A stretch of DNA of 64,000 nt. It comes from Patiriisocius marinus. Its GTDB lineage: Bacteria; Bacteroidota; Bacteroidia; Flavobacteriales; Flavobacteriaceae. Position numbers and translations under genes: made by a program. The notes beneath the pieces are model-generated. The model made no database searches. It worked only from the letters and a program-made list of their open reading frames with translations, and was not told the DNA's origin. Positions 46,539 to 62,751 of the stretch are shown one piece after another (the stretch's first letter is position 1; each line of letters starts with the position of its first letter). The stretch spans positions 310,001-374,000 of the forward strand of contig NZ_BKCG01000001.1 of assembly GCF_008974325.1 (NCBI RefSeq), written 5' to 3'.

Positions 46539-46877
46539 ATGGCAGCAAATAATTATTACGATCCAGCAGATTTACGAAAATTCGGAAAAATTACAGAATG
46601 GAGTGAAGAACTTGGGAACAAATTTTTCGACTACTACGGTAAAGTTTTTGAAGAAGGAGCTTTAACAGCAAGAGAGAAAGCCTTAATAGCACTCGCTGTA
46701 GCTCACACTGAACAATGCCCTTATTGTATAGATGCTTACACTAAAGACACACTACAACGTGGTGTAACTAAAGAGCAAATGATGGAGGCAATTCACGTAG
46801 GTGCAGCAATTAAAAGTGGAGCGACATTAGTGCACGGAACAATGATGATGAACAAAGTAAATAAATTAGAAATGTAA
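46539..46877 (+). CDS. Arsenosugar-associated peroxidase-like CMD protein
   Basis: The 112-residue protein belongs to the carboxymuconolactone decarboxylase/AhpD group, with the redox motif CPYC in HTEQCPYCIDAYT (about residues 66-69) and the conserved helix AIHVGAAIKSGATLVHG. This short form is typical of genes next to arsS. It may protect the thiol or arsenic chemistry of the pathway, by analogy with AhpD. It is the first gene of the long plus-strand locus. Confidence 0.85.
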   Translation: MAANNYYDPADLRKFGKITEWSEELGNKFFDYYGKVFEEGALTAREKALIALAVAHTEQCPYCIDAYTKDTLQRGVTKEQMMEAIHVGAAIKSGATLVHGTMMMNKVNKLEM

Positions 46878-46913
46878 GTTACTCAACGGAAATTGAGAAC
46901 GATAAAAAATTAA

Positions 46914-46977
46914 ACCCGCAAGCAGTAAGCAGATAGTTATTATCAATTTACTAAGGTCCCCCGCCTTTGCGGGTATT
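46914..46977 (+). promoter_or_regulatory. Alternative hairpins in the arsS leader
   Basis: ACCCGCAA (46914-46921) can pair with TTGCGGGT (46967-46974). The same GCGGG (46969-46973) can instead pair with CCCGC (46960-46964) in a short local hairpin that ends eight bases before the arsS start codon. The two structures exclude each other. Confidence 0.4.
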
Positions 46978-46981
46978 ACAT

Positions 46982-48049
46982 ATGGCAAAATTAAAACAAC
47001 AGTCACTACAAAAAAGAGATGCCGAACTTGCAAATGCAAAACGCCAACTCGAAATTTTAAGCAATGGTATTTTTCAAAATGGAGAACTACCCACTTTTGC
47101 TAAAAAAATTAAGGAAACAAATCAGCTTCCTCTTCGCCCTAAAAAACTTGAAATTCTTCAAATTAATGTAGGCTATATGTGTAATCAAGTGTGCGAACAC
47201 TGTCACGTAGATGCAGGTCCAGATCGTAAAGAAATTATGACTTGGGAGACCATGGAGCAATGTCTTGAAGTAATTAAAAACACCGAAGCCCATACATTAG
47301 ATTTGACAGGTGGTGCCCCGGAAATGAATCCACATTTTCGTCGTTTTGTTGAGGAAGCTAGTAAAGCAGGAATTAAGGATTTTATTGTAAGAAGTAATTT
47401 GACAATTATTCGAGCTAATAAAAAATATCACGACTTACCAGAATTTTTCAAGAAACACAATGTACATGTTGTGAGTTCTATGCCACACTGGACGCGAGGA
47501 AAAACTGACAAACAACGTGGTGAAGGTGTTTTTGACATGAGTATTAAAGCCTTACAAGAACTTAATGCAGTAGGCTACGGAATGCCAGATAGCGATTTGC
47601 GTTTAGACCTAGTTTACAATCCTAATGGTGCTTACCTTCCAGGAGACCAAGCGAGTATGGAAAAGGAAATGAAAGCAGCTTTATTAGAAGATTTTGATAT
47701 TCGTTTTCACAGCCTTTTCGCCATTACTAACTTACCAATTGCCCGTTTTCTTGATTACTTAATTGCAAGTGAAAACTATGAAGATTACATGTATCAACTT
47801 GTGGAAGCATACAATCCAGCCGCTGTAGAAAATGTTATGTGCACTAATACAATTTCAATTAGCTGGGATGGTTTTTTATATGATTGCGATTTTAACCAAA
47901 TGCTAAAATTACCTGTTGCTAGCAAAGTGAAGCATATTAAAGATTATAATGAAGATTTACTAAACGATAGAAATATAATGATTTCGCAACATTGTTACGG
48001 CTGTACTGCAGGAGCAGGAAGTAGTTGTCAAGGTACTGTTGCTAACTAA
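46982..48049 (+). CDS. arsS: Arsenosugar biosynthesis radical SAM protein ArsS
   Basis: ArsS joins dimethylarsenite to a 5'-deoxyadenosyl group, giving the nucleoside precursor of arsenosugars. From ATG at 46982 the protein has 355 residues. The radical SAM cluster motif is CNQVCEHC (Cys67, Cys71, Cys74). A Cys-rich C-terminal domain follows, with CTNTISISWDGFLYDCDF and QHCYGCTAGAGSSCQG. Some family members use selenocysteine; here all positions are Cys codons. ArsM, phosphorylase and transferase genes nearby support the assignment. Confidence 0.92.
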   Translation: MAKLKQQSLQKRDAELANAKRQLEILSNGIFQNGELPTFAKKIKETNQLPLRPKKLEILQINVGYMCNQVCEHCHVDAGPDRKEIMTWETMEQCLEVIKNTEAHTLDLTGGAPEMNPHFRRFVEEASKAGIKDFIVRSNLTIIRANKKYHDLPEFFKKHNVHVVSSMPHWTRGKTDKQRGEGVFDMSIKALQELNAVGYGMPDSDLRLDLVYNPNGAYLPGDQASMEKEMKAALLEDFDIRFHSLFAITNLPIARFLDYLIASENYEDYMYQLVEAYNPAAVENVMCTNTISISWDGFLYDCDFNQMLKLPVASKVKHIKDYNEDLLNDRNIMISQHCYGCTAGAGSSCQGTVAN

Positions 48050-48746
48050 CACTAAGAAAAAAGTTATCTATAAAAAAACAGCCATATTAATCTTTGCCCA
48101 ATCTGGCAAGCAAGAAGGAGTTTCAAAACCCTTTTTGAAATCGGCTGTACTTTTCAATGAACTCAATAAGAAAACTATTGCTAAAGTTGAAAAAACTGGC
48201 CTTCCCTATTTTCATATTTCTGAAACTGAACAAATAGGAAATTCATTTGGTGAGCGATATACAAATGCCATAAAGCAAGTATATGCTCAGGGATTTGAAA
48301 ATGTTATCACAATTGGTAATGATTCCCCGAGGCTAAAAACATCACAACTTTTAAAGGCTGCAAAAGAGTTAGAAAAAAAAGCTATGGTATTAGGACCATC
48401 TCGTGATGGTGGATACTATTTATTAGGTTTAAACAAGTCTCATTTTAATGCTGCATTATTTTTAAAATTACCGTGGCAAACATCAAGACTTACACAAAAT
48501 ATCACTCGACTATTTAGCACTAAAAACATAGAAGTTACCCTACTTGAAAGCCTTAACGATATTGATAATATTGATGATGCAAAGAGCTTTATTGATGGAT
48601 TCCAGAAAATTTCGGAAGAACTCCTAAAAATACTTCGTGCTTTTTTTTATTCTGAAAAGCTTCCTCTGAGAATACTGTCTTTTAGAGACAACATGTTTCA
48701 TCAAAAAATCTACTTCAACAAAGGATCTCCTTTTCCTTCTTTATAA
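48039..48746 (+). CDS. DUF2064/CofC-like transferase, copy 1
   Basis: The only usable start is TTG 48039, which overlaps the end of arsS by 11 bases. The 235-residue product has the nucleotidyl/glycosyl-transferase fold of the TIGR04282-like group, with ITIGNDSPRL (about 87-96) and LGPSRDGGYYLLGL (about 112-125). The N-terminal region lacks the basic KTR motif seen in the second copy at 56277, so this one may have a different substrate or be an accessory subunit. The last 40 residues are basic and aromatic and have no obvious counterpart. Confidence 0.8.
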   Translation: MLTNTKKKVIYKKTAILIFAQSGKQEGVSKPFLKSAVLFNELNKKTIAKVEKTGLPYFHISETEQIGNSFGERYTNAIKQVYAQGFENVITIGNDSPRLKTSQLLKAAKELEKKAMVLGPSRDGGYYLLGLNKSHFNAALFLKLPWQTSRLTQNITRLFSTKNIEVTLLESLNDIDNIDDAKSFIDGFQKISEELLKILRAFFYSEKLPLRILSFRDNMFHQKIYFNKGSPFPSL

Positions 48747-48845
48747 TTACAGACAAATTCCCTTTTGCCATAATAGAAAGGGTTTATTGAATTTCGATTT
48801 ATAAACGGAGTTTCAAATTGTTTTACTCAAACCAATTCCTTATTA

Positions 48846-51800
48846 ATGAAACAACTATATGTTGCTATATTACTGCTTTGCAGTTTTATTGGCTATACTC
48901 AAAATACCATTTCGGGTACTGTAAAAAGTGCTTTTGACAATCAACCTATTGCTTTTGCTAACATTAGCGCCAAAGGCACAGACCAAGGAACAACAACAGA
49001 CATCGATGGTAATTTCTCAATGATAGCACCTATGTCTAAAACTGTTTTTACAGTCTCTGCAATTGGATTTAAAACATTAGAATACACGTATTTTAATGAA
49101 AGTAGTTTATTCATATTATTACCGGTTTCAGAAGAAGCCCTTAATGAAGTTGTTATTACAGCACTTGGTATTAAACGTGAAGAAAAAGAACTTGGCTATA
49201 CTGTTCAAACTATAAAAGCTGAAGACATAAATGAAGTGAAAGCTGTAAATTTTTTAGATAACTTATCTGGAAAACTAGCAGGAGTAACAGTTTCTCAAGG
49301 TGCCACAGGAGTAGGCTCTTCATCTAAAGTAACTATTCGAGGTGAAGCTTCTTTTTCAAATAATAATCCACTATTTGTTGTTGACGGAGTACCTATAAAC
49401 AACGAAACTGTTTTCAACTTTACAAACGAAGCTGCTGCTGGATTTCAGGAAATTGATTTTGGAAATGGAGCGATGGAAGTTAACCCAGACGATATTGCTA
49501 GTGTTACTGTTCTAAAAGGCCCAAGTGCCGCAGCTCTTTATGGAACTCGAGCATCAAATGGTGTTATTGTTATTGAAACAAAAGGAGGTGGAAATTCAGA
49601 AGGAATGGGAATTAGCATTAATACTTCAACCTTTATTGACAGTGCTTTTAAACTCCCAGAATTTCAAAATCAATATGGCCAAGGAAACTCAGGACAGTTT
49701 GAATATGTTGATGGCCTTGGCGGTGGAACAAATGATAACATTACCTATTCTTGGGGGCCAAGATTAGATAGTGGTTTACTTATTCCACAATTTGACAGCC
49801 CTGTAGAATTGCCCAACGGAACCTTTGTTCGTGGTGGTGACACCGCTTTATACAATGGCCTTCCTATTACCGCAACGCCATTTAATAGTAACCCAGATAA
49901 TTTGAAAGACTTTTATAAAACTGGAGTAACAACTATCAATAATATTAGTGTAGCAACTGGCTTCGGAAATGGTAATTATCGACTATCGTTCACCGATTTA
50001 AGAAGTGAATCCATAATTCCAGGAGTCAATCTAGATCGTCAAACAGTAGCAACAAAACTACATTTTGACCCTTCCGAAAAAACTGATATTGACGCATCGA
50101 TTAGCTACGTTAATTCCAGTAGTGATAATCGTCCAAGTAATGGATATGGAAGTGAAAATGTAAATTATTCTCTAGTGGCTTGGGGACCTCGCTCACTTAA
50201 TATTAATAGTTTGCGTGACTACTGGCAACCCGGTCTTGAAGGTGTGCAGCAATATTCATTTAACTATACCTTTTTTGATAATCCATATTTCATATTATTT
50301 GAAAACCGAAATAGTTTTGATCGTGATCGTGTCTTCGGAAATATTAGTTTGAAACACCAATTCACTCCAGCATTTAGCGCAACACTCCGCACAGGAATGG
50401 ACTACTCTAGCGAACAACGCCAACTAAGAAGGGCTTTTAGTAGTAATAGATTTAGTAACGGCGCATATGCAGAACACGACGTAAAATACCGTGAAATTAA
50501 CACTGATTATTTATTGAATTACAAAAAAGACCTTGGTAGTATTAAAATAGATTTCTCTTTAGGTGGAAATAGATTAGATCAAACCGCTTCTACAAAACAA
50601 ACACAAACAGTTAACCTTGCACAACCAGGTATTTTTAGTTTAAACAATGCCGCCTCTCCTTTAGAGGTGTTTGAATTTCAGTCTCAAAAGAGGATAAATT
50701 CGGTATATGGAATTGCGAAATTTGGTTATAAAAACTTTCTATTTTTAGATATCACAGGTCGAAATGATTGGTCAAGTGCGTTAGCTACACCTTTTTCGGT
50801 TGATAACACGTCATTCTTTTATCCTAGCATATCTTCGAGTTTTATAATTTCCGAAGTTTTTGATCTCCCTTCTCAAGTTTCCTTTGCAAAGTTGAGAGTG
50901 AGCTATGCGCAAGTGGGAAACGATACTCAGCCATATCAAACTACGGGTGCTTTTGTATCGCAAACACCATTTAACGGTCAGCCTACATTTAGTGATCAAG
51001 ATTTTATTCCAAATGCGAATCTGCGTCCAGAAAGTGTAACAAATTATGAGGTTGGTTTTGATGTTAGATTATTTAAAAGCAAAGTAAAGCTAGATGTTAG
51101 TTATTACAATGCATTAACGAAAGATCAAATTATTTCATTGCCAATTGCTATTTCATCTGGGTATAATCAACAGGTTGTAAATGGTGGAAATGTAAGAAGT
51201 CAAGGGCTTGAAGCTATTGTAGGATTAACACCTGTGAAAACCTATAATTTTCAATGGAATTCTACTTTCAATTTTAGCACAAGCAAAGCTGTTGTGGAAA
51301 GCTTACCACAAGAAGAAGGTCGATTAACACTTGCTTATAGCCGTATTTACGATAGTGCAAATCAAACAGTTTGGTTTCAAGTGGAAGAAGGCGGACAAGT
51401 GGGAGATATCTACGGGACCGGTTATTTAAAAAACGAAAATGGCGGCTTTATCATTGATAACGAAGGTAAATACATAGCAGATAACGAGCTTCAATTATTA
51501 GGGAACTATAATCCAGATTTTGTATTGGGATGGAATAATGAATTTGCTTACAAAAAATGGAATGCATCATTTCTTTTAGATTGGAGACAAGGCGGAGAAA
51601 TTGTATCAAGAACGAGTGCATTAGGTAACGTAGGTGGTCAATTAGCCGAAACAGCATACAGACCTGAAGAAGGTATTGTTGCAAACGGAGTTGTAAATAC
51701 AGGAACTGTAGAGAACCCAAATTATGTACCTAACACGACAGCAGTTTCTGCTGAAAGTTATTACCGTCAATTTTATGATCGAAATCATGAAGAGAACAAC

Positions 51801-52061
51801 GTATATGATGCTAGTTATTTAAAGCTACGTCAGTTTTCAATAGGCTATACTTTTGACTTAAACAAAGGAGCTTTAGGGCTTGAAGAAGGTGGTGATATTA
51901 GTGTTTCATTTATTGGTAAAAACATATTTGCTATTACTGAAAACCCTCATTTTGACCCTGAACAATTAGCAGTTCAAGGTAATGGCTTTGTTAGTGGTGT
52001 TGAAGATATGAGCTATGCAACTACAAGAAGTTTTGGTTTAAAAGCTAGTATTAATTTTTAA
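48846..52061 (+). CDS. SusC/RagA-type TonB-linked outer-membrane transporter
   Basis: The 1071-residue protein has a signal peptide (1-18), a carboxypeptidase-like domain (about 20-95), the plug with the SusC signature VTVLKGPSAAALYGTRASNGVIVIETK (near 220-247, family-typical) and a 22-strand barrel ending FGLKASINF. It forms an outer-membrane import complex with the SusD protein that follows. No glycan-degrading enzyme is nearby; instead it sits inside an arsenosugar-type locus, so an organoarsenic or related substrate is possible but unproven. Confidence 0.92.
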   Translation: MKQLYVAILLLCSFIGYTQNTISGTVKSAFDNQPIAFANISAKGTDQGTTTDIDGNFSMIAPMSKTVFTVSAIGFKTLEYTYFNESSLFILLPVSEEALNEVVITALGIKREEKELGYTVQTIKAEDINEVKAVNFLDNLSGKLAGVTVSQGATGVGSSSKVTIRGEASFSNNNPLFVVDGVPINNETVFNFTNEAAAGFQEIDFGNGAMEVNPDDIASVTVLKGPSAAALYGTRASNGVIVIETKGGGNSEGMGISINTSTFIDSAFKLPEFQNQYGQGNSGQFEYVDGLGGGTNDNITYSWGPRLDSGLLIPQFDSPVELPNGTFVRGGDTALYNGLPITATPFNSNPDNLKDFYKTGVTTINNISVATGFGNGNYRLSFTDLRSESIIPGVNLDRQTVATKLHFDPSEKTDIDASISYVNSSSDNRPSNGYGSENVNYSLVAWGPRSLNINSLRDYWQPGLEGVQQYSFNYTFFDNPYFILFENRNSFDRDRVFGNISLKHQFTPAFSATLRTGMDYSSEQRQLRRAFSSNRFSNGAYAEHDVKYREINTDYLLNYKKDLGSIKIDFSLGGNRLDQTASTKQTQTVNLAQPGIFSLNNAASPLEVFEFQSQKRINSVYGIAKFGYKNFLFLDITGRNDWSSALATPFSVDNTSFFYPSISSSFIISEVFDLPSQVSFAKLRVSYAQVGNDTQPYQTTGAFVSQTPFNGQPTFSDQDFIPNANLRPESVTNYEVGFDVRLFKSKVKLDVSYYNALTKDQIISLPIAISSGYNQQVVNGGNVRSQGLEAIVGLTPVKTYNFQWNSTFNFSTSKAVVESLPQEEGRLTLAYSRIYDSANQTVWFQVEEGGQVGDIYGTGYLKNENGGFIIDNEGKYIADNELQLLGNYNPDFVLGWNNEFAYKKWNASFLLDWRQGGEIVSRTSALGNVGGQLAETAYRPEEGIVANGVVNTGTVENPNYVPNTTAVSAESYYRQFYDRNHEENNVYDASYLKLRQFSIGYTFDLNKGALGLEEGGDISVSFIGKNIFAITENPHFDPEQLAVQGNGFVSGVEDMSYATTRSFGLKASINF

Positions 52062-52079
52062 TTAAATGGCTGTTTGAAT

Positions 52080-52098
52080 TACACCTTTATAAGGTGTA
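52080..52098. repeat. Hairpin between susC and susD
   Basis: TACACCTT and AAGGTGTA flank a three-base loop between the susC stop and the susD start. There is no T-run; it may set the ratio of the two mRNAs or proteins. Confidence 0.45.
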
Positions 52099-52118
52099 GC
52101 AGTTTTAAAATATATAGT

Positions 52119-53561
52119 ATGAAAATAACATTTAAAATATTCAGCTTGCTTTGCTTGATACTAGCATCGAGTTGTACAAAAGATTTTGAAGAAATAAATA
52201 CAAATCCAAATGCCCCTAATAACGTGCAACCAAGCCTGTTGCTTAGACAAGTTATTTATGATTTTGGTGAACAAATGAGTTACGAAGGTTTTGTAGCTGG
52301 CGATTTATTATCACAACATCGAACCGCTTTAGACTTTAATTTATTTGATCGTCACGCATTAAAATCGCCTCAATTGGGGGGAAATCCTTGGCCTATATTT
52401 TACACGAATCTTCGTGACAATCAAATAATACTAGAACAAGCACAAAGCGTAAATACCTATGCTGTTTACGAAGGTCCTGCGCTGCTATTAAAAGCATATA
52501 TGACTGCTGGATTGACTGACATGTTTGGTGATGTTCCGTACAGTGAAGCATTTAATGGTGTTAATGGCACCGTAACTCCGCGTTATGATTTACAAGAACA
52601 TATTTATCTCAATGAAGATGGCATTTTAGATAATATTGACAAGGGTATAGCGGCAATAGAAGCCTATAATGATGTGATTCCCCTCGATGGCGATATATTA
52701 TTTAATGGCGATTTAAACGCATGGATTACCTTCGGAAATTCTCTAAAAATAAAACAGCTCCTTCGCATTAGTAATAAGGTAGATGTTTCACTAGAAATGC
52801 AAGCAATTTTTGAAAGCGGAAATTACTTTACGGCAAACAGTCAAAATGCTATTTTCAATTTCACAAACACAGACCCTAATAGCTTTAGACTTGCCCAACT
52901 ACGTGTGGGAGATTTCAATAATTTTGTGTTATCTGAAACAATGGAAAACGTATTAAAGAACTTAAACGATACTCGTATAAGACAATTTTTTCGCCCAACA
53001 GAAAACTCAAATGGCATTGAATTTGAAGGTTTAATTAACGGAATTGACGCATCAACTACCTCAATAGAGTTGGCTTCACTATCATTAGCAGGTACCGCTT
53101 TTAGAGAAGATACTTCTTCATTAGACGCTAATTTTCTAACGGCTTGGGAGACCTATTTCAATCTAGCTGAAGCAGCCGAAAGAGGAATCATTAATGCAGA
53201 CCCACAATCACTTTATGAGACTGGAGTTGCCTTAGCATTTGAATATTGGCAAACTGAACTCCCATCAGATTACTTATCAGGAGCCGCAGCATATAATGCT
53301 ATTGGGACTTCGCCTATTGAACAAATTGTCACTCAGAAATGGATAGCACAAATTATTAATGGATATGAAGGATGGATTGAATGGAAACGAACTGGATTTC
53401 CAACATTTCTAGATGTACAATCTAGTTTAAATGGAGGTTTAATTCCTATTAGAATGCCTTACCCTTCAGAGGAAGAAGCTTTAAACAATGAAAATTACCA
53501 ACAGGCTGCTACTGCTACTAATGGTAATAGTTTAGATACACCTGTTTGGTGGGACGAATAA
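52119..53561 (+). CDS. SusD/RagB-type surface lipoprotein
   Basis: From ATG at 52119 the product has 480 residues with a lipoprotein signal (LASSCTKDFEEINTNPN), the usual SusD start. The central region has TPR-like helices, including LTDMFGDVPYSEAF, and the C terminus LDTPVWWDE is typical of the SusD/RagB subgroup of the SusD_2-like type. It binds substrate at the cell surface and closes the SusC barrel. The upstream ATG at 52074 would precede the signal peptide and is unlikely. Confidence 0.92.
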   Translation: MKITFKIFSLLCLILASSCTKDFEEINTNPNAPNNVQPSLLLRQVIYDFGEQMSYEGFVAGDLLSQHRTALDFNLFDRHALKSPQLGGNPWPIFYTNLRDNQIILEQAQSVNTYAVYEGPALLLKAYMTAGLTDMFGDVPYSEAFNGVNGTVTPRYDLQEHIYLNEDGILDNIDKGIAAIEAYNDVIPLDGDILFNGDLNAWITFGNSLKIKQLLRISNKVDVSLEMQAIFESGNYFTANSQNAIFNFTNTDPNSFRLAQLRVGDFNNFVLSETMENVLKNLNDTRIRQFFRPTENSNGIEFEGLINGIDASTTSIELASLSLAGTAFREDTSSLDANFLTAWETYFNLAEAAERGIINADPQSLYETGVALAFEYWQTELPSDYLSGAAAYNAIGTSPIEQIVTQKWIAQIINGYEGWIEWKRTGFPTFLDVQSSLNGGLIPIRMPYPSEEEALNNENYQQAATATNGNSLDTPVWWDE

Positions 53562-53581: not shown

Positions 53582-54916
53582 ATGGAAACAATTATCTGGC
53601 AATGGCTTCTAATAATCGTATCAAGTTTGATACTGTTTTTTTTGTCGCCATTAGCAAAAAATGCAGATCAGTTTTTTAAGGCGAATCATAAAAAGAAAGC
53701 GCCTTCTGCTCTATGGTTAACAGGGAGTTTGATTATATCGTGGATCTTCGCAAAGAGTATTACCAATGCTGCCAACTTAGGTTTAGATTTTGGAATTGTT
53801 GGTGGTGTAGCGTATGCGGGATATTATTTATCCTTTGCTGTGGCGGGAGTACTTATATATCAACTAAGAGTTAAAGGTGGGTTTTCAAGTATTCATCATT
53901 TTTTAACTACACGTTTTGGAAAAGGGGCAATGGCACTATTTTCTATTTTAATTGCCATTAGGCTTTTCAATGAAGTATGGAGCAATACGATGGTTATTGG
54001 TAATTATTTTGGAGATTCTGGAACTGCAGCTTATTATTGGGCAATTCTTGTTTTTACATCCCTAACTTTAGCATATGCAATTAAAGGTGGACTAAGTAGT
54101 TCAATTTTTACAGATGTAATACAAATGGTATTATTTTCGGTATTATTAATTATTATTTTAGGAGCTGTATTTACAAAGGGAGATATTTCGGTTACAGAAG
54201 TTGCACTTTCGGGCAGCTGGACTTTTGAACTTGGACTTAACCTATTTTTTGCTGCAATAATCCAATCCTTTAGTTACCCTTTCCATGACCCCGTATTGAC
54301 AGATCGTGCCTTTTTAAGCTCACCAAGGGTAACAAGACGCAGTTTTTTATGGGCAAGTGTTTTAGGCGCTATATGTATTATACTTTTTAGTGTTATTGGC
54401 GTGTATGCTCAAAGCGAAGGAATGAAAGGACAAGCAGCAGTTGAAGTTGGAAAAGCATTTGGTGTAGTAATACTGCTTGTTATTAATTTTATTATGATAA
54501 CCTCAGCCGCTTCCACACTAGACTCTACATTTTCATCCTTTTCAAAATTACTAGCGGTAGATTTAAAGCTAGGAAACAACCTAACCTTTGGAAGATTATC
54601 AATGGCTATAATTGCCATTTTAGGAACAATCCCAGTGTTTTTAAATGCCGAAATATTAAGTGCCACAACAATTTCTGGAACAATGGTTATTGGATTAACT
54701 CCTGTATTTTTATTTTGGAATTTAAAAGTGCCGAAAATCAGTTTTTATTTAAGTGTAATTTCTGGTTTGGTATTCGGCTTCTTGCTTCTCTTTAATACAT
54801 TTCCAGAGGCATTAATTTTAACTAAAGGAAGATACGCAGACCTATTGTGGGTGAATGTTTGGGGAATAGCAACTTGTATAATTTTATATATAGCACCATT
54901 GTGGATAAAAAGATAG
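53582..54916 (+). CDS. Sodium:solute symporter (SSS family)
   Basis: The 444-residue inner-membrane protein has about twelve helices and SSS-family features, including the GGLSSSIFTDVIQM stretch (TM5, about 180) and the conserved core of inverted repeats. Such symporters carry sugars, nucleosides, amino acids or urea with sodium. Located after susCD, it would bring the same compound across the inner membrane, or return a pathway product. Its stop lies inside the start of the metallophosphoesterase gene. Confidence 0.88.
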   Translation: METIIWQWLLIIVSSLILFFLSPLAKNADQFFKANHKKKAPSALWLTGSLIISWIFAKSITNAANLGLDFGIVGGVAYAGYYLSFAVAGVLIYQLRVKGGFSSIHHFLTTRFGKGAMALFSILIAIRLFNEVWSNTMVIGNYFGDSGTAAYYWAILVFTSLTLAYAIKGGLSSSIFTDVIQMVLFSVLLIIILGAVFTKGDISVTEVALSGSWTFELGLNLFFAAIIQSFSYPFHDPVLTDRAFLSSPRVTRRSFLWASVLGAICIILFSVIGVYAQSEGMKGQAAVEVGKAFGVVILLVINFIMITSAASTLDSTFSSFSKLLAVDLKLGNNLTFGRLSMAIIAILGTIPVFLNAEILSATTISGTMVIGLTPVFLFWNLKVPKISFYLSVISGLVFGFLLLFNTFPEALILTKGRYADLLWVNVWGIATCIILYIAPLWIKR

Positions 54917-55728
54917 AAAATTTAGGAATTTTAGACGGTAAAATATTAATTTTTGGTGGTGTTTACAGCAATCTGCAAGCACTCGAAAAACTGAAACATA
55001 TTTCAGAAGAATTAAATATTGCGCCTGAAAACTGCATTTGCACGGGTGATATAATTGGCTATTGTGCACAACCCGAAGAAACAATTCAGTTGTTTAAATT
55101 GTGGGGAGCACGAAGTATTGTTGGAAATGTTGAAATCCAACTACGAGACAATGAAACAGACTGTGGCTGTGACTTTAGAGAAGGAAGCAGATGTGATGGT
55201 TTTTCACAATTATGGTACCCTTTTGCCCAAAGTAAATTAACCCAAAACTCATTAGATTTTATCGCAACACTACCAGATCATATTACCTTTAGTTTCGGCG
55301 GAAATATTAATACCGTTGTACATGGTTCATACAACAATGTATCTGAGTTTATATTTAAAAGCACCCCTTGGAGTTTAAAAGAAACTTCTTTTAATGACAC
55401 TAAAAGTGATGTCATAATTGCAGGGCATTGTGGACTGCCTTTTAAAGATGAACAAAATAAAAAACAGTGGATTAATCCTGGTGTAATAGGAATGCCTGCA
55501 AATGATGGTGAACCGCACGTATGGTATGCTGTTTTAGAAGAAATAAATGGCAAGATGATTGCATCACATTATACAATGAATTACAATCATCAACTTACAA
55601 GCCAACTTATGAAAAACGGTTTGTTACCTGAAGAATACGCTAGAACAATAGTAACAGGAATTTGGGACAATACCGAAATTTTACCCGCTGTAGAAAGTGG
55701 CTTACAAGGTTTTGGAATACGTATTTAA
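54901..55728 (+). CDS. Metallophosphoesterase of the arsenosugar-type locus
   Basis: The start is taken as GTG 54901, overlapping the symporter gene by 16 bases; the product has 275 residues. Calcineurin-like metal-binding motifs are seen as FGGVYSN (a variant of GDxHG), CTGDIIGYC (about 45-53), GNVE (about 80), HG (about 140) and AGHCGLPF (about 175). It probably removes phosphate from a sugar or nucleotide intermediate. The replacement of the first Asp motif is unusual and might alter activity. Confidence 0.8.
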   Translation: MDKKIENLGILDGKILIFGGVYSNLQALEKLKHISEELNIAPENCICTGDIIGYCAQPEETIQLFKLWGARSIVGNVEIQLRDNETDCGCDFREGSRCDGFSQLWYPFAQSKLTQNSLDFIATLPDHITFSFGGNINTVVHGSYNNVSEFIFKSTPWSLKETSFNDTKSDVIIAGHCGLPFKDEQNKKQWINPGVIGMPANDGEPHVWYAVLEEINGKMIASHYTMNYNHQLTSQLMKNGLLPEEYARTIVTGIWDNTEILPAVESGLQGFGIRI

Positions 55729-55761: not shown

Positions 55762-56277
55762 ATGACAAAAATTATAATTACAATAACTTTTCTATTTTCA
55801 GTAAGCTATGGCTTTGCTCAGAAAACTTTAGAGGCATTATTAAATCAATACAACACGCAAAGTATCCCATATATTTCGGTGCAAGAACTGAGAATGCTCC
55901 AACTTAATAGTGATATTGCAATATTAGATTCAAGAGAGCAAAACGAATATGAAGTAAGCCATATAGATGGTGCAACTTTAATTGGGTTTAACAAGTTTTC
56001 GGCAGATGATATTTCCGAAGAAATAAAAGATAAAGATGCTCCCATTATTGTGTATTGTTCCCTTGGAATTAGAAGTGAAGAAATAGGAGAAAAACTCAAA
56101 AAAGCTGGATTTACAAATGTGAAAAACTTATACGGTGGTATCTTTGAATGGAAAAATAACGACTACCCTATTGTAAACAACGCATCAGTTGAAACGGATA
56201 GTGTCCACACGTTTTCAAAAGGATGGAGCAAATGGTTAAACCGAGGTATTAAAGTTTATAAAACAGATAATAATTAA
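55762..56277 (+). CDS. Exported rhodanese-like protein
   Basis: The 171-residue protein has a signal peptide (1-19, YGFAQ) and a single rhodanese domain with the active-site loop YCSLGIRS (Cys near 93) and ILDSREQNEYEVSHIDGA (about 53-70). Periplasmic rhodaneses transfer sulfur or bind thiophilic anions such as arsenate or arsenite; some arsenic operons encode one. The stop overlaps the start of the next gene (TAATG). Confidence 0.85.
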   Translation: MTKIIITITFLFSVSYGFAQKTLEALLNQYNTQSIPYISVQELRMLQLNSDIAILDSREQNEYEVSHIDGATLIGFNKFSADDISEEIKDKDAPIIVYCSLGIRSEEIGEKLKKAGFTNVKNLYGGIFEWKNNDYPIVNNASVETDSVHTFSKGWSKWLNRGIKVYKTDNN

Positions 56278-56960
56278 TGGCTATATTAGGAATTAAAAAT
56301 GATGATAATGCCAGAAAAGATAATGATGTATTTCACTATCCCACTTCTAAAAACGCACTTATTATTTTTACTCGAAATGCAGAATTAGGAAAATGCAAAA
56401 CTCGCTTAGCAGCTACTGTTGGTGATGAATCGGCTTTAGAGATTTATAAATTTTTATTACGACATACTGTGGACATTACCACACCATTGAATGTAGATAA
56501 ATTTGTTTTTTATTCTGTAAAAAAACGTGATAATGACCTTTGGGATGAAACGATTTTTAGAAAGAAAACACAATACGGTGACGACTTAGGAATTAGAATG
56601 CAAAATGCTTTTGACGATGTTTTTGAAATGGGATATTCTCGAGCAATTATCATTGGTAGTGATATGTATGATATGACTACAAACGATTTACAAAACGCCT
56701 TCAATAAATTAATTGATAGTGACGCTGTTGTAGGCCCAGCAAAAGATGGAGGATATTATTTACTAGGAATGAAAGAAGTGCAACAAGCTGTGTTTAAAAA
56801 TAAAACTTGGGGTACAGATACCGTTTTAGAAAGCACACTTGCAGATTTAAAAGATAAAAAAATCGCATTATTAGATAAAAAAAATGATGTGGATTATTAT
56901 GAAGATATTGCTGATATAGAAGTATTTCAACAATTTTTTCCGGCGGAATTAAAAAAATAA
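56277..56960 (+). CDS. TIGR04282-type arsenosugar glycosyltransferase (CofC-like), copy 2
   Basis: The 227-residue protein has the motif set of this family: LIIFTRNAELGKCKTRLA (about 30-46, substrate-binding Lys/Arg), IIIGSDMYDMT (about 121-131) and VVGPAKDGGYYLLGM (about 149-163). The family accompanies arsS and arsM and is thought to take part in building the arsenosugar. The N-terminal 25 residues are an unusual charged extension (KNDDNARKDND). It is coupled to the rhodanese gene and followed by the phosphorylase gene. Confidence 0.88.
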   Translation: MAILGIKNDDNARKDNDVFHYPTSKNALIIFTRNAELGKCKTRLAATVGDESALEIYKFLLRHTVDITTPLNVDKFVFYSVKKRDNDLWDETIFRKKTQYGDDLGIRMQNAFDDVFEMGYSRAIIIGSDMYDMTTNDLQNAFNKLIDSDAVVGPAKDGGYYLLGMKEVQQAVFKNKTWGTDTVLESTLADLKDKKIALLDKKNDVDYYEDIADIEVFQQFFPAELKK

Positions 56961-57001: not shown

Positions 57002-57814
57002 ATGAAAAAATATATTAAAGAAGCAGTAGAGTTTCTACAAAGTAGAGGCTTCGGAAAACCAGAAGTAGGAATTATTCTAGGGACAGGTTTAGGGAAAATT
57101 ATTGATGAAGTTACTATTGAAGCTGAAATGAGCTACAATCACATTCCTAACTTTCCTACAGCAACGGTTGAATTTCATAAAGGAAAATTGATTTATGGAG
57201 AATTAGCTGGTAAAAAAGTGGTGTTAATGCAAGGTCGTTTTCATGTTTATGAAGGATATTCTTTAACTGATGTTACTTTCCCTGTACGTGTAATGAAAGA
57301 ACTTGGTATTTCTAAACTTCTTGTAAGCAATGCCTCTGGAGCAATAAATCTTAACTTTAAAAAGGGAGAAATCATGTTAATTGATGATCACATCAATTTA
57401 CAAGGAGGATCTCCCCTAGCTTTTAAAGGAGTTGAAAAACTTGGTGAGCGCTTTGTAGATTTAAGCGCGCCTTATGATGCTAAAATGAATGCTTCTCTTG
57501 AAGAAATTGCTTCTAAAAACAATATCAATTTACACAAAGGGGTATATGCAAGTGTTGTTGGACCACAACTTGAAACTCGTGCTGAATATCGCTATTTAAA
57601 AATTATAGGAGCTGATGCTGTTGGGATGAGTACTGTTCCTGAAATTATTGTTGCAAACCACTTAAACCTTCCTGTTATTGCATTATCAGTTTTAACTGAT
57701 GAATGCGACCCAGATAATTTGAAGCCAGTAGATATTGCTGATATTATCGCACATGCAGGAACAGCAGAACCTCAAATGATTACACTTTTTACAGAATTAA
57801 TTAAAACACTTTAA
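57002..57814 (+). CDS. Purine-nucleoside phosphorylase, family I
   Basis: The 270-residue enzyme has the class signatures GIILGTGLGKI (about 19-29), QGRFHVYEGYS (about 80-90), LVSNASGAIN (about 105-114) and the catalytic region VGPQLETRAEYRYLKIIGADAVGMSTVPE (about 180-208). It splits purine nucleosides with phosphate. In this locus a natural role is phosphorolysis of the arsenic-bearing deoxyadenosine made by ArsS to free adenine and give a sugar phosphate. That role is inferred from context; a general salvage role is the alternative. Confidence 0.92.
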   Translation: MKKYIKEAVEFLQSRGFGKPEVGIILGTGLGKIIDEVTIEAEMSYNHIPNFPTATVEFHKGKLIYGELAGKKVVLMQGRFHVYEGYSLTDVTFPVRVMKELGISKLLVSNASGAINLNFKKGEIMLIDDHINLQGGSPLAFKGVEKLGERFVDLSAPYDAKMNASLEEIASKNNINLHKGVYASVVGPQLETRAEYRYLKIIGADAVGMSTVPEIIVANHLNLPVIALSVLTDECDPDNLKPVDIADIIAHAGTAEPQMITLFTELIKTL

Positions 57815-57815
57815 A

Positions 57816-58013
57816 ATGAAAAATGTTTTTTCAGTGTTATTAATTGGAGTTGCTTTTTTTAAACTCACTGTTTCAATTTTAAATCCTAATGAAATTGTAA
57901 CGCTATTCGGTGCAGAAGTTAATATTTGGATTTACCGGGCAATATGGCTTTCTGCCGGTTTGCTATCAGTATATTCTATCAATAAGGAGCGCAACAAAAC
58001 CTCCGAAAATTAA
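57816..58013 (+). CDS. Small two-helix membrane protein of the arsenosugar-type locus
   Basis: The 65-residue protein starts two bases after the phosphorylase stop and has two helices (about 3-20 and 35-55) with a short polar C terminus. Its tight spacing suggests co-translation. I recognise no family. Confidence 0.7.
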   Translation: MKNVFSVLLIGVAFFKLTVSILNPNEIVTLFGAEVNIWIYRAIWLSAGLLSVYSINKERNKTSEN

Positions 58014-58074
58014 AATACTTGTACCTATCAACTTCTTTAAAAGGTAGATAATCACTAAAATAAAACAAATACAC

Positions 58075-59043
58075 ATGAGCTATTTAGATGCTACACACGA
58101 TGTTTACAAAAAAGCAGCCTTAACTCCAGATGTTGGATTATGCTGCACTACAAACCCAATATGGGAGTTACCAGGTTTAAAAATTCCTAAAATTATGCAG
58201 GAAATGAACTACGGTTGTGGTAGTACTGTTCACGCACGCGATTTATCAAACAACCCTAAAATGCTTTATGTAGGCGTTGGTGGAGGAATGGAATTATTAC
58301 AATTCTCTTATTTCAATCGTCAAAAAAATGGCGTTGTGGGTATTGATGTTGTTGACGAAATGCTAGAAGCATCACGTAAAAACTTCAAAATAGCAGAAGA
58401 ACAAAACGATTGGTTTAAAAGCGAATTTGTTGACCTCAAAAAAGGGGATGCACTTAACCTTCCTGTGGAAGACAACTCTATTGATGTAGCAGCGCAAAAC
58501 TGTTTATTCAATATTTTTAAAGCAGAAGATCTTAAAAAGGCCATTAAGGAAATGTACCGAGTTTTAAAACCTCACGGTAAATTAGTAATGAGCGATCCTA
58601 CTTGTGAACAAGAAATGAATCAAACATTACGTGATGACGATCGTTTACGAGCATTGTGCTTAAGCGGAAGTCTTCCTATTGCAGAATATGTAAAAGCATT
58701 AACCGATGTTGGTTTTGGAACTATTGAAATTAGAGCTAGAAAACCTTATAGAATTTTAGATCCTAAAAATTATCCTACAGACGAGTTAATCTATATCGAA
58801 TCTATAGAAGTTGCAGCAATTAAAGACCCAATGCCAGAAGACGGCCCTTGTATTTTTACTGGAAAAGCAGCTATTTATTACGGTGACCAAGATTTCTTTG
58901 ATGATGACCTAGGACACATTTTATTAAAAAACCAACCCTTAGCTATTTGTGATAAAACAGCAGGGGCTTTAAAAGAACTAGGAAGAAATGATATCTACTT
59001 TAGTGAATCTACTTTCCATTATGACGGTGGTGGATGTTGTTAA
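58075..59043 (+). CDS. arsM: Arsenosugar-type arsenite methyltransferase ArsM
   Basis: ArsM transfers methyl groups from S-adenosylmethionine to As(III). The 322-residue protein differs from classical ArsM and matches the arsenosugar-associated form. It has an N-terminal Cys motif GLCCTTNPIW (about 23-32), MNYGCGSTV (Cys49), the AdoMet site LYVGVGGGMELL (about 65-76), AQNCLFNIF (about 143) and SDPTCEQEM (about 180), and ends in GGGCC. The several Cys residues can hold As(III). A strong hairpin terminator follows. Confidence 0.9.
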   Translation: MSYLDATHDVYKKAALTPDVGLCCTTNPIWELPGLKIPKIMQEMNYGCGSTVHARDLSNNPKMLYVGVGGGMELLQFSYFNRQKNGVVGIDVVDEMLEASRKNFKIAEEQNDWFKSEFVDLKKGDALNLPVEDNSIDVAAQNCLFNIFKAEDLKKAIKEMYRVLKPHGKLVMSDPTCEQEMNQTLRDDDRLRALCLSGSLPIAEYVKALTDVGFGTIEIRARKPYRILDPKNYPTDELIYIESIEVAAIKDPMPEDGPCIFTGKAAIYYGDQDFFDDDLGHILLKNQPLAICDKTAGALKELGRNDIYFSESTFHYDGGGCC

Positions 59044-59078
59044 ATTAAACAAAATTGTCATATTAAAATTGTAATTTT

Positions 59079-59115
59079 ATAGTCTGTTGTTCGTCTGAAT
59101 AACAGACTATTTTTT
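59079..59115 (+). terminator. Terminator directly abutting the next start codon
   Basis: A perfect 10-bp stem (ATAGTCTGTT and complement) with a 12-base loop is followed by five T and A, and the start codon of the hydroxylase gene comes next at 59116. Confidence 0.7.
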
Positions 59116-60000
59116 ATGAATAAATACATCAACATATTTAAAGATTCCTATCAAGGATATTTCAATTATTTAATAAGTGAAATCACATCATTCCATTGGG
59201 ACAACTATTTCTACGGATTGATTATAGTTTCACTAATTGTATGGGGACTTGAAATTGCATTCCCGTGGCGAAAAAATCAAAAGATTTTCAGAAAAGACTT
59301 TTGGTTGGATACTTTCTATATGTTTTTCAATTTTTTCTTACTGAACCTAATAGTGTTAATAGTTCTTTCAAATACAGCCGAAAGTTTATTTAACGATGCC
59401 CTTGGATTAGTTAATTTAAATTTAAGTGATTTTCAATTATTAGATTTAAACGCTTTACCTTTTGGAGTAGGTTTACTTATCTTTTTTATAATAACAGATT
59501 TTGTACAATGGAATACACACAGGCTTTTACACCGCGTACCTTTCCTTTGGAATTTTCACAAAGTTCACCACTCAATTAAAGAGATGGGCTTTGCTGGCCA
59601 CCTAAGGTATCACTGGATGGAACCTATAGTTTACAAATCTATTTTATACATACCGCTTGCCATTATTGGTGGATTTAATGTAGAGCAAGTTGCGATTGTT
59701 CATTTCTCAGCACTAACTATTGGGCATTTAAATCACGCAAACCTAGGCTGGGATTACGGTGTTTTAAAATATGTTTTCAACAACCCCAAAATGCATATTT
59801 GGCATCACGTAAAAGAGCTTCCTGAAAACCATAAAAATGGAATTAATTATGGAATATCTTTAAGTATCTGGGATTACCTTTTTGGCACTAATCATGTACC
59901 CTATAATGGACGTGACATCGAATTAGGATTTGATGATGATGAAAAATTTCCAAAAACTTTTTTAAAGCAAGAAGCATATCCTCTATCACAAGAGAAATAA
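59116..60000 (+). CDS. Sterol desaturase/fatty-acid-hydroxylase family protein
   Basis: The 294-residue membrane protein has four or more helices and the eight-His diiron pattern: HRLLH (about 135), HKVHH (about 150), and HLNH with HIWHH (about 210-235). Relatives hydroxylate lipids or cleave ether lipids (alkylglycerol monooxygenase). In this locus it could act on a lipid-linked arsenosugar or its aglycone; the sequence alone does not show that. Its ATG lies immediately after a terminator hairpin. Confidence 0.85.
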   Translation: MNKYINIFKDSYQGYFNYLISEITSFHWDNYFYGLIIVSLIVWGLEIAFPWRKNQKIFRKDFWLDTFYMFFNFFLLNLIVLIVLSNTAESLFNDALGLVNLNLSDFQLLDLNALPFGVGLLIFFIITDFVQWNTHRLLHRVPFLWNFHKVHHSIKEMGFAGHLRYHWMEPIVYKSILYIPLAIIGGFNVEQVAIVHFSALTIGHLNHANLGWDYGVLKYVFNNPKMHIWHHVKELPENHKNGINYGISLSIWDYLFGTNHVPYNGRDIELGFDDDEKFPKTFLKQEAYPLSQEK

Positions 60001-60088
60001 AAAAGGCTATCATATCTTTTTGGAATAATGATTGTAATTGTTGTCAATACAACACGTCTCATATACTTTCATCAACAAATTTCTTCAT

Positions 60089-61033
60089 ATGAAAAAGCTA
60101 TTATTACTTTCAATTGCGTTTATAACATTACTGTCTTGTAACAACACAAAAAAAGTTGTCGAAGAAACTCCAAAACCTTCTGATTTTGATAAAAGTGTTA
60201 TTAACGATAACATAACAGTAAGCAATGGAAGGCTTATTGCTAAAACTCGGCCTGTTTCAGAATTAGATAAAAAAAGCGTTGCTCCTCAAGTTCCAGAAAA
60301 CATAACACCTGTTACAGTTGAAATAAACCCTCCTAAAGTGGTACCTCAACCTAAAGTGGAACCAATGACTCTACCGCTAGTTAAAAATATCACTCTTGCC
60401 CACCAATCCTTTAACACTCTATTACAAAACAATGTTAGTGCTAATGGAAATGTCAATTACGAAGGTTTTAAACGTAACCGAAAAGTGCTATCAAATTATA
60501 TAAAAGCTTTAGGTGAAAATATACCTCAGGATGATTGGACACAAAACGAGAAACTTGCTTATTGGATGAATGCCTATAATGCAATGACTATCGATTTAAT
60601 TTTACGTAATTGGCCAGTAGAAAGCATTAAGGATATTAAAAAACCTTGGGATCAACGCTATTGGAAACTGGGCGACAAATATTACAATCTGGAGGAAATT
60701 GAACACCAAATATTGCGTAAAATGGGAGATGCTCGTATTCACTTTGGTATAAACTGCGCATCATTCTCTTGCCCACCTTTATTAAACGAAGCCTTTACAG
60801 CGGCCAAAGTAGCTAGCCAATTAAATATTGTTGCTACAAAATTTATAAATGACTCTAGCCGAAATATGATTTCGGAAAACAGCATCGAAATTTCTAAAAT
60901 TTTTGATTGGTTTTCAAAGGATTTTAAACAAAACGGAAGTGTAATTGATTATTTGAACAAGTTTTCAGAAGTTAAAATTTCCGAAGATGCTAAAGTGCGT
61001 TATATGGATTACAATTGGGAACTTAATAAATAA
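60089..61033 (+). CDS. DUF547 lipoprotein, copy 1
   Basis: From ATG at 60089 the product has 314 residues with a lipoprotein signal (TLLSCNN), a Pro-rich spacer (about 75-105) and a DUF547 domain with ARIHFGINCASFSCPPLLNEAFTA near its middle. The upstream ATG at 60038 precedes the signal peptide and is unlikely. It is paralogous to the next gene. DUF547 proteins are often secreted and have unknown function. Confidence 0.85.
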   Translation: MKKLLLLSIAFITLLSCNNTKKVVEETPKPSDFDKSVINDNITVSNGRLIAKTRPVSELDKKSVAPQVPENITPVTVEINPPKVVPQPKVEPMTLPLVKNITLAHQSFNTLLQNNVSANGNVNYEGFKRNRKVLSNYIKALGENIPQDDWTQNEKLAYWMNAYNAMTIDLILRNWPVESIKDIKKPWDQRYWKLGDKYYNLEEIEHQILRKMGDARIHFGINCASFSCPPLLNEAFTAAKVASQLNIVATKFINDSSRNMISENSIEISKIFDWFSKDFKQNGSVIDYLNKFSEVKISEDAKVRYMDYNWELNK

Positions 61034-61130
61034 GCAGGCTTACTAATCTTATATTAAAATTAGCCCAAGCATTTGTTAACAGTACAGTAGGTGTTATTTT
61101 TTTAAGCTACTTTCATTCAAAATACCATCA

Positions 61131-61931
61131 ATGAAACTTTTAAAAATATCAATAACAATATTAATTGTGGCAGTTACTTTACAAAGTTGTAACTTATTAT
61201 CTGCCGCAGGCATCATTAGCCAAGGACAACCGGTAAAACAGGTTGAAGGCACTCTTACCTCAACTACTGCAAATAGCGCTGTAAATGTAGATCACAGCCT
61301 TTGGAACAGTCTTCTTAAAAAACATGTAAAAAACAACGGTTTAGTTTCATATAATGGGTTTAAAAAAGACAAGACTACCTTAGATAGTTATTTAGACCAA
61401 TTAGCTAATTTAGACCCTTCAAATAAATGGAGCGTCCAGGAATTACTGGCATACTACATTAATTTATACAATGCAGAAACGGTTAAGTTAATTGTTGAAA
61501 ATTACCCCACTAAAAGCATTAAAAATATAAAAGGGGCTTGGACGGAAGGAAGAGTAACAATTGGTAATCGCGAATTATCCTTAGGAGGAATTGAAAACGG
61601 AATTCTTAGAAAAATGAACGAACCTCGAATACATTTTGCTATTAATTGTGCCTCGATATCTTGTCCTAAATTATTAAATGAAGCTTACACTGCGGCCAAA
61701 ATTAATGAACAATTAGAAAAGGTAACTGTAGATTTCATTAATGGAAACAAGAATGACATCAATGCCACAAACCCTAAAATATCATCCATTTTTAAATTCT
61801 ATCCAAAAGATTTTAAAATAGATGGAGCGCAAAATATTGCAGAATATATTAATAAATACAGTAGCGTTAAAATAAATAACGATGCTACTTTAAATTATAA
61901 AGAGTACAATTGGAACTTAAATGAGCAATAG
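61131..61931 (+). CDS. DUF547 lipoprotein, copy 2
   Basis: The 266-residue protein has a lipoprotein signal (TLQSCNL) and a DUF547 domain with the same landmarks as its neighbour: LAYYINLYNAET, SIKNIKGAW, and PRIHFAINCASISCPKLLNEAYTAAKI. It lacks the long Pro-rich spacer. The conserved Cys pair (INCAS and SCP) suggests a thiol-based or structural role. It overlaps or closely precedes the glycosyltransferase gene. Confidence 0.88.
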   Translation: MKLLKISITILIVAVTLQSCNLLSAAGIISQGQPVKQVEGTLTSTTANSAVNVDHSLWNSLLKKHVKNNGLVSYNGFKKDKTTLDSYLDQLANLDPSNKWSVQELLAYYINLYNAETVKLIVENYPTKSIKNIKGAWTEGRVTIGNRELSLGGIENGILRKMNEPRIHFAINCASISCPKLLNEAYTAAKINEQLEKVTVDFINGNKNDINATNPKISSIFKFYPKDFKIDGAQNIAEYINKYSSVKINNDATLNYKEYNWNLNEQ

Positions 61932-61983
61932 TTTTCAAACTATTGAAAACCTAACAAAGCCAATTTTCGTAAGTTTACCATAT

Positions 61984-62751
61984 ATGTTAAGTGTAATCAT
62001 CCCCGTACTAAATGAAGCAGAAAATATTATATCTGTGCTCAGTCATTTAACTGAAAGCAGCTCTATTGAAACTACTTCAGAAATCATACTAGTTGATGGT
62101 GGTAGTGAAGATAACACAGTACAACTTGCATTAGATTTTTCTGAAAGAACTCCATTTTCAATATTCGTTATTTCTTCGGAAAAAGGGCGAGCAAAACAAA
62201 TGAATTCAGGTTTTAGAAAGTCAACGGGAAGTATTTTATATTTTCTGCACGCAGATTCGTATCCTCCTAAAAATTTTGATGCATTAATTATCAATGAAGT
62301 TAAAAAAGGAAATCCCGCTGGCTGTTTTAAAATGAAATTTGACAGTGATCATTGGTGGCTACAATTAGCAAGTTGGTTTACAAAATTTTCTTGGCGTGCC
62401 TGCCGTGGAGGAGATCAAAGTCAGTTTATTACTCGCGAACTATTTGAGGAAATAGGTGGTTTCGACGAAACTTTCATTATTTATGAGGATAACATTCTTA
62501 TTAACGAATTATACAAACGAAACAAATTTGTGGTAATTCAGGAATGGATAGGTTCATCTGCTAGAATGTACCAAGACAAAGGAGTTTGGTTTGTTCAATA
62601 TCATTTTTATATAATTTATTTAAAAAAATGGTTTGGAGCGGACGCTAATGAATTGTATGCTTACTATCTAAAACATATTAAGGATTGTCGAGTTGCTAAA
62701 ATTTCAGCAGAAAAAGCTACACTTTCAAAAAAAGCTTTTGCAGACGAGTAA
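61984..62751 (+). CDS. TIGR04283-type arsenosugar glycosyltransferase (GT2)
   Basis: I place the start at ATG 61984, giving MLSVIIPVLNEAENI, the standard N terminus of this group; an earlier ATG at 61921 adds 21 residues and overlaps the DUF547 stop. The 255-residue GT-A fold has LVDGGSEDNT (about 32-41), LHADSYPP (the DxD-like motif, about 89-96) and CRGGDQSQFITRELFEEIGGF. The family accompanies arsS and TIGR04282 proteins and is thought to add the aglycone or a further sugar. It is the last enzyme gene of the locus. Confidence 0.88.
   Translation: MLSVIIPVLNEAENIISVLSHLTESSSIETTSEIILVDGGSEDNTVQLALDFSERTPFSIFVISSEKGRAKQMNSGFRKSTGSILYFLHADSYPPKNFDALIINEVKKGNPAGCFKMKFDSDHWWLQLASWFTKFSWRACRGGDQSQFITRELFEEIGGFDETFIIYEDNILINELYKRNKFVVIQEWIGSSARMYQDKGVWFVQYHFYIIYLKKWFGADANELYAYYLKHIKDCRVAKISAEKATLSKKAFADE

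Follow-up and report, generated by a model that had tools for sequence, protein, structure and literature searches.

What are genes for transport across the outer and inner membranes doing in a cluster for arsenosugar biosynthesis? The question is raised by a 64,000-nucleotide stretch of the Patiriisocius marinus genome (contig NZ_BKCG01000001.1, positions 310,001 to 374,000; hereafter the window). In its plus-strand run at 46539-62751, a first-pass annotation had recognised an arsenosugar core, consisting of the radical SAM enzyme ArsS, ArsM, TIGR04282- and TIGR04283-type transferases and a peroxidase-like CMD protein (TIGR04169), together with SusC and SusD, a sodium:solute symporter (SSF), a metallophosphoesterase-family protein (MPE), a rhodanese, a purine nucleoside phosphorylase (PNP), a hydroxylase and two DUF547 proteins. 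We located all of these genes, each with a match over a curated cut-off (a weak one for SSF), and the five core assignments all held. The core enzymes are already known; the new part is an import module tied to arsS. The genes for SusC, SusD, SSF and MPE, usually led by a second transferase-like gene, G82b, form one cassette, which is restricted to arsS-carrying genomes among those searched.

A transport cassette restricted to arsS genomes

We scored 299 genomes of the window's family for ArsS and for MPE. A TIGR04167 (ArsS) match was present in 215 (72%); the 84 of 299 scored as arsS-lacking are an upper bound, as one of them (G292, scored lacking at an E limit of 1e-60) has arsS on locus L162. 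MPE orthologues (at least 359 bits, 53-100% identity) were separated from the next match (68 bits, 29%) and occurred in 40 of the 299 genomes. Matching the two lists row by row, by eye, we found arsS in all 40 (40/40, compared with 215/299 overall); the hypergeometric probability of such a placement at random was 6e-7, with genomes treated as unrelated. The SSF orthologue was present in 41/299 genomes, namely the same 40 and G242. Orthologues of SusD (at least 63% identity), sought in 80 of the 299 genomes, were found in 27 out of 30 genomes with MPE, in 0 out of 25 with arsS and no MPE, and in 0 out of 25 lacking arsS. The three MPE genomes with no SusD match were those whose locus has SSF-MPE but no SusCD.

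In a draw of 395 genomes from the phylum, MPE was present in nine, of which seven were new. All seven carried arsS (7/7), compared with 26 out of 73 genomes sampled from the 386 without MPE (p 0.0013). Five of the seven fall in four other families of the class, where arsS was present in 5/5 genomes with MPE and in 0/6 sampled genomes without it. The cassette and arsS lay on different contigs in G605, G655 and G367 (the cassette contig of G367 is 17 kb, which leaves the distance open), and in G087 the cassette was about 179 kb away from the arsS cluster, in which arsM lies beside arsS. Because the two reside together even when unlinked, neighbourhood alone does not explain the association. A lack of co-occurrence with arsS in related genomes had been named in advance as the result that would speak against the first-pass reading of susCD and the symporter; their orthologues instead occurred only in arsS genomes, with the exception of the SSF in G242. 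This restriction suggests import of something specifically for organic-arsenic chemistry.

Gene order was compared in a named and a fetched set of loci, which were not summed (L003 and L118, L004 and L121, L029 and L126, and L056 and L144 are the same genomes). The named set comprises the best 80 of at least 585 arsS relatives with flanks of up to 10 kb, so its counts are lower bounds, and SusC matches of 21-40% identity were left uncounted. By title, the named loci are mostly flavobacterial, Marinirhabdus gelatinilytica, Cochleicola gelatinilyticus and several Winogradskyella included, with one Chlorobiota metagenome-assembled genome (MAG). Their usual core is CMD-ArsS, followed in most loci by the order Rhod-G82a-PNP-ArsM-(hydroxylase)-DUF547-TIGR04283, partial or whole. 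SusC orthologues were present in 14 of the 80 loci, always as G82b-SusC-SusD (14/14), and SSF-MPE came next in 13 of these 14, L058 stopping at a contig end. The block lay directly 3' of arsS in ten named loci, as in the window, and directly 5' of CMD-arsS in L041, L044, L056 and L057; L032 had SSF-MPE without the rest of the block.

For the 39 fetched loci, counts were redone by tblastn because the gene caller drops overlapping frames. SSF adjoined MPE in 47/47 genomes, and SusC-SusD-SSF-MPE were consecutive in 44/47 (36/39 fetched family loci, the window and 7/7 phylum loci; at L175 there is an overlapping short antisense frame). The four-gene unit was present in five families. In 38 out of 39 fetched loci, MPE and ArsS were encoded on one strand, with MPE starting at a distance of 1.3-9.5 kb. 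MPE and CMD formed a single open reading frame (ORF) in 7 out of 39 fetched loci and in L179, from another family, as well as in the named loci L041, L044 and L057 (401-415 residues).

When the cassette label was mapped onto a FastTree phylogeny of 128 ArsS proteins, it required at least 24 changes, 11 of them forced by starred branches, compared with 41.6 in shuffles; 13 of the 128 rows were unlabelled owing to short flanks, cassette loci were over-sampled, and the long branches L147 and L187 were joined. The cassette is clustered on the ArsS tree, yet it has been gained or lost repeatedly. Across 49 loci, pairwise identities correlated with those of ArsS at 0.88 for SusC, 0.83 for SSF, 0.74 for SusD and 0.65 for MPE.

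Phosphoesterase, transferases, phosphorylase and hydroxylase

The first-pass pathway had assigned a dephosphorylation to MPE. In 57 out of 57 aligned MPE sequences, we observed invariant G38 and Y40 at the D-x-H motif and G196 in place of the last His of GHxH, while D68, N94, H159 and H194 are kept. In the layout usual for this fold, these changes remove metal site M1 and keep the other site. In addition, V95 replaces the His of GNHE in 56 of the 57 sequences; this change is not telling, because that His is also absent from six paralogues of related genomes (26-29% identity to MPE), which have Tyr there and keep the D, the H and GHTH. With three metal ligands replaced, MPE is, to judge from its sequence, unlikely to be a normal binuclear phosphatase, which makes the proposed dephosphorylation doubtful. 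MPE also has four invariant cysteines (C73, C106, C108 and C116), of which C73 and C116 are absent from the six paralogues, and the protein may have a role in arsenic binding. Relative to metallophosphoesterase 3rqz (Metallophos_2 type), to which it has a weak domain-wide sequence match (37 bits), MPE has the D-x-H and the last H replaced, cysteines 73 and 116, and in some loci a fusion to CMD. MPE thus seems to be a phosphoesterase family member that has been converted to another role, and attention for the steps still missing after ArsS shifts away from a phosphatase.

The single TIGR04282-type transferase named previously is only part of the picture. The locus has two TIGR04282-like genes: G82a, after the rhodanese gene, scores over the cut-off, and G82b, after arsS, is a sub-cut-off paralogue that had been missed. 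The nucleotide-binding G-xx-K-x-R-L motif was kept in 97 out of 97 G82a-type homologues (as K-T-R-L in 91). Both K and R were present in 0 out of 57 G82b-type sequences with letters at these positions, six more being gapped. G82b thus departs from the TIGR04282 type in both its score (109.7 vs 134) and its lack of the KTRL-type motif. The sole solved chain matched by G82a was 3cgx.

The case for PNP as a dedicated enzyme of the pathway weakened. It is the sole class-I PNP of the genome, scoring over the NF006054 cut-off and not reaching the MTAP model TIGR01694 (91.6 vs 274.85). Homologues, a homogeneous group with one copy in nearly all genomes listed, were present in 265 out of 299 family genomes, so that at least 50 of the 84 genomes scored as arsS-lacking must have PNP. 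Among eight PNP loci from such genomes, PNP stood alone in five (L155, L156, L158, L159 and L161) and lay in a cluster remnant without ArsS in two (L157 and L160); the eighth, L162, proved to hold arsS. No diagnostic residue was found at the positions compared between the five stand-alone copies and 92 others. We therefore rejected PNP as a pathway marker, it being a general gene found in arsS-lacking genomes as well. We also rejected as an adaptation to arsenic nucleosides a residue that differs from human PNP, since the same residue is present in the solved chain 4lna. PNP may act on the arsenic nucleoside too, serving both purposes.

The remnant in L157 (genome G263, no TIGR04167 match) has the order ArsM-X-Rhod-G82a-PNP-DUF547-TIGR04283. 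In the place of ArsS it encodes a different radical SAM protein of 365 aa (L157:7188-8285), which reached no curated cut-off and may be another C-As-forming enzyme. In arsS clusters, other neighbours of PNP were a DoxX-like gene (L016:13948-14361) and a DM13/T9SS-sorted family, the latter in ten named loci (L007, L010, L016, L018, L019, L020, L021, L025, L027 and L028).

Co-occurrence with arsS had also been predicted for the hydroxylase, and here the prediction was borne out: homologues at 65-86% identity were present in 31 out of 55 arsS genomes and in 0 out of 25 arsS-lacking genomes, with the 65% limit chosen after the list had been seen and the gap beneath it narrow (61%). A second hydroxylase type (61% identity or less) occurred in genomes both with and without arsS. 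About 63 kb separates MPE from the hydroxylase of the first type in G274. An assignment as the ornithine lipid hydroxylase OlsE was not obtained, NF052566 giving 89.5 bits against a cut-off of 475.

Layout of the locus

The 3.56-Mb genome has one TIGR04167 match over the cut-off by profile search, and the closest named ArsS (96% identical) comes from a Flavobacteriaceae MAG. The features of the region are listed in Table 1.

Table 1. Genes and other features in and around the arsenosugar cluster (window positions; scores in bits)
Feature	Position	Strand	Basis
tRNA gene, upstream of the region	44392-44464		Rfam, sole match
CMD/AhpD-like protein, CxxC motif	46539..46877	+	TIGR04169 190, cut-off 120
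ArsS, arsenosugar radical SAM enzyme	46967..48049	+	TIGR04167 435.9, cut-off 300
G82b, degenerate paralogue of the TIGR04282/DUF2064 type, usually at the head of the cassette	48039..48746	+	109.7, cut-off 134
SusC, TonB-dependent outer-membrane importer, TonB plug	48846..52061	+	TIGR04056 565, cut-off 368
SusD (SusD-like_2), lipoprotein by eye	52074..53561	+	PF12771 271, cut-off 27
SSF sodium:solute symporter, separate subfamily	53582..54916	+	PF00474 25.3, cut-off 22.8 (weak)
MPE, phosphoesterase-family protein	54847..55728	+	PF12850 34.5, cut-off 27
Rhodanese (Rhod), signal-peptide-like start by eye	55762..56277	+	NF045521 204, cut-off 145
G82a, TIGR04282 CofC-like transferase, motif intact	56277..56960	+	208, cut-off 134
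PNP, class-I purine nucleoside phosphorylase	57002..57814	+	NF006054 338.5, cut-off 218
Small hydrophobic ORF, 65 aa, between PNP and arsM	57816..58013	+	
ArsM, arsenosugar type	58075..59043	+	NF038099 570.7, cut-off 400
Terminator-like hairpin 3' of arsM	59079..59110	+	
Fatty acid hydroxylase superfamily protein	59116..60000	+	PF04116 95, cut-off 31
DUF547 protein a, lipoprotein by eye	60038..61033	+	DUF547, over cut-off 27
DUF547 protein b, lipoprotein by eye	61131..61931	+	DUF547, over cut-off 27
TIGR04283 GT2 glycosyltransferase	61921..62751	+	217, cut-off 182
Hemerythrin-domain protein, same run, beyond the range first annotated	62864..63313	+	PF01814

The start given for MPE is the first in-frame start codon, and the real start may lie further in. 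SSF scored 38 bits against TIGR00813, under its cut-off of 184, and the two DUF547 proteins scored 90.5 and 91.9 bits. By eye, the rhodanese has a signal-peptide-like start and the DUF547 proteins look like lipoproteins, in line with their first-pass description as exported and as lipoproteins, respectively. Relatives of the 65-aa ORF were present in six other fetched loci at 37-48% identity (L003 and L118 again being one genome), and the hemerythrin gene in 9 out of 39 fetched cassette loci. The hairpin after arsM possibly divides the run into two transcription units; the region has no excess of terminator-like hairpins (11 found vs 11.1 expected) or of sigma-70-like sites (93 found vs 80.6 expected). 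The exact Flavobacterium-type promoter pattern occurs in this part only at 44329 (+) and 44218 (-), with none directly 5' of CMD.

Among the cluster genes scanned, there were no glycoside hydrolases of the kind found in polysaccharide utilisation loci. As had been noted before, no ArsR, ArsB or ArsC was found in the 20 ORFs scanned at 43440-63951, the remaining window being only partly scanned. Another contig of the same genome (L189:6764-9333, G000:C6) carries a gene for the arsenite exporter ACR3, together with a separate regulator gene of ArsR type and two ORFs that matched no family.

What the cassette may import

With moderate confidence, we regard the cassette as a dedicated TonB- and sodium-driven import system of the arsenosugar cluster, its cargo most likely being an organoarsenical. 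The arsenosugar biosynthesis cluster would have captured the block (G82b)-SusC-SusD-SSF-MPE. A small compound would pass the outer membrane through SusC, with SusD as its lid and TonB as the energy source, and SSF would then bring it over the inner membrane together with sodium. Inside the cell, the cysteine-rich MPE and the CxxC protein CMD would hold or reduce the arsenic moiety, with no normal phosphatase action. The compound would most likely be pentavalent with a C-As bond (for example a methylarsinate or an arsenosugar) and feed ArsM and ArsS; a co-substrate of the pathway would be the next candidate. ArsS would yield an arsenic-adenosine compound, from which the general PNP would release adenine, leaving a sugar-1-phosphate for activation by G82a, a CofC-like nucleotidyltransferase, and transfer by the GT2 enzyme TIGR04283. 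In this order of PNP, G82a and TIGR04283, no phosphatase would be needed. The sequences directly show the genes, the integrity of the cassette, its restriction to arsS genomes among those searched, the fusion and the altered ligand positions. The direction of transport is read from the protein families, whereas we infer what is carried, what MPE and CMD do, and every reaction that follows ArsS. The pathway of the first-pass annotation is thus partly supported; that SusCD carries an organoarsenical, as it had suggested, is our own conjecture also.

Several observations weigh against this reading. Taken by itself, the test within the family has modest weight, since arsS occurs in 72% of its genomes; these genomes are also related to one another. 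The cassette is optional, 175 of the 215 arsS genomes having no MPE, and arsM fell outside the fetched 20 kb in 24 out of 39 cassette loci. An SSF 59% identical to that of the window is encoded in G242 (L164:9244-10623), in what by eye is a phenylacetate cluster; this genome had no arsS, MPE or SusD match, and its SSF raises the possibility that the symporter is a phenylacetate carrier. C106 and C108 of MPE are common to the six paralogues, which have lost the GNHE His as well, so that neither is special to MPE. Part of the cassette plan is not arsenic-specific, as the arsS-lacking genome G001 has a G82b-like gene preceding SusCD, along with an ABC importer (L190). A TetR gene beside this SusCD is 75% like the TetR beside several cassettes, so chromosomal place may confound the association.

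The relatives of SusCD bear on the choice of substrate. In the 80 genomes searched, the best two non-cassette SusD matches (38-39% identity) were both in arsS-lacking genomes. At L191, the SusC-SusD pair is accompanied by a purple acid phosphatase and a PF01663 enzyme, and within 5 kb lie two genes for the phosphonate lyase PbfA, both over the cut-off; at L190, the ABC importer is followed by a ribonucleoside-hydrolase-like gene (weak, 78 bits vs a cut-off of 382). These neighbours hint that the wider SusCD group may handle substrates of phosphorus or riboside type. From them come both the organoarsenical guess, through the analogy of C-P and C-As bonds, and a rival that we consider unlikely, albeit the strongest of the three rivals weighed: the cassette would import a co-substrate or acceptor (a riboside, polyol, sulfonate or organophosphorus compound) to which G82a and TIGR04283 attach arsenoribose. 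SusCD-like complexes (PusCD) proposed for organic phosphorus in Flavobacterium (PMC8115612) would suit this idea, whereas the fusion of MPE to CMD and the cysteine richness of MPE suggest arsenic handling rather than an acceptor, itself a matter of interpretation, and the many arsS genomes without the cassette would have to synthesise the acceptor internally.

The data argue more strongly against mere hitch-hiking in the cluster, with the transport genes serving ordinary nutrition and having no functional link. SusCD and SSF belong to families widespread in Bacteroidota, and PNP of the same cluster is a general gene. However, arsS was present in 40/40 and 7/7 genomes with MPE, in four of which the cassette was not seen near arsS, the four genes stay together as a unit in five families, and MPE is fused to CMD in some loci; we consider hitch-hiking very improbable. 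Slightly less remote, and still improbable, is that the cassette retrieves arsenosugar leaked by its producer, in a detoxification loop rather than by scavenging. The arsS-bound hydroxylase of the locus type would agree with this, and the exported and lipoprotein-like products suggest steps in the envelope. Present data do not separate a leaked from a foreign compound, but most arsS genomes manage without the cassette, and this genome has ACR3, at another site, for arsenite efflux. Other transport genes were observed at arsS loci: a PHO4-family phosphate transporter after arsM (L019, L021, L024, L053, L055 and L066; 0 out of 39 fetched cassette loci), an MIP channel (L174) and other outer-membrane barrels (L005, L018, L050 and L076). 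Their presence would fit recurrent recruitment of arsenic-relevant transport.

If dedicated import of an organoarsenical is the function, a wider and more tentative picture can be drawn. Some Bacteroidota would take up organic arsenic with TonB and sodium energy and would have rebuilt a phosphoesterase fold as a cysteine-lined arsenic handler, fusible to a CxxC redox protein; the arsenosugar locus would then scavenge and remodel arsenicals from algae and other organisms and not only detoxify arsenite. A 2025 review states that uptake of small organoarsenicals, including arsenosugars, is largely unknown, in reference to the body and not to bacteria (PMC12608789). The cassette offers four defined genes whose deletion one by one in ordinary flavobacteria could put bacterial uptake of organoarsenicals to the test. 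Our literature search, with most subscription journals outside its coverage, returned no paper joining arsenosugar with TonB and none joining ArsS, arsenosugar, radical SAM and ArsM.

The locus shares its core enzymes with the arsenosugar genes defined in NCBIfam (TIGR04167, TIGR04169, NF038099, TIGR04282 and TIGR04283); for Synechocystis, the ArsM and ArsS steps are attributed in PMC8552651 to Xue 2019 and in PMC12159101 to Cheng 2021. To these systems it adds the transport cassette, PNP, the hydroxylase and the DUF547 genes, and among the cassette genes only G82b matched an arsenosugar-named model, under the cut-off. The arsinothricin genes arsQML likewise combine a radical SAM enzyme with ArsM to make a C-As natural product; they differ in being three genes, with ArsL predicted to transfer a 3-amino-3-carboxypropyl group and ArsQ an efflux permease (PMC8552651). 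PusCD of Flavobacterium (PMC8115612) is, like the cassette, a non-glycan SusCD with inner-membrane transporters and phosphoesterase-type genes, and a SusD relative in G018 lies near phosphonate genes. Compared with PusCD as described there, the cassette is bound to arsS genomes, uses an SSF importer and has an altered MPE, and its SusD is just 38-39% identical to the nearest pairs found.

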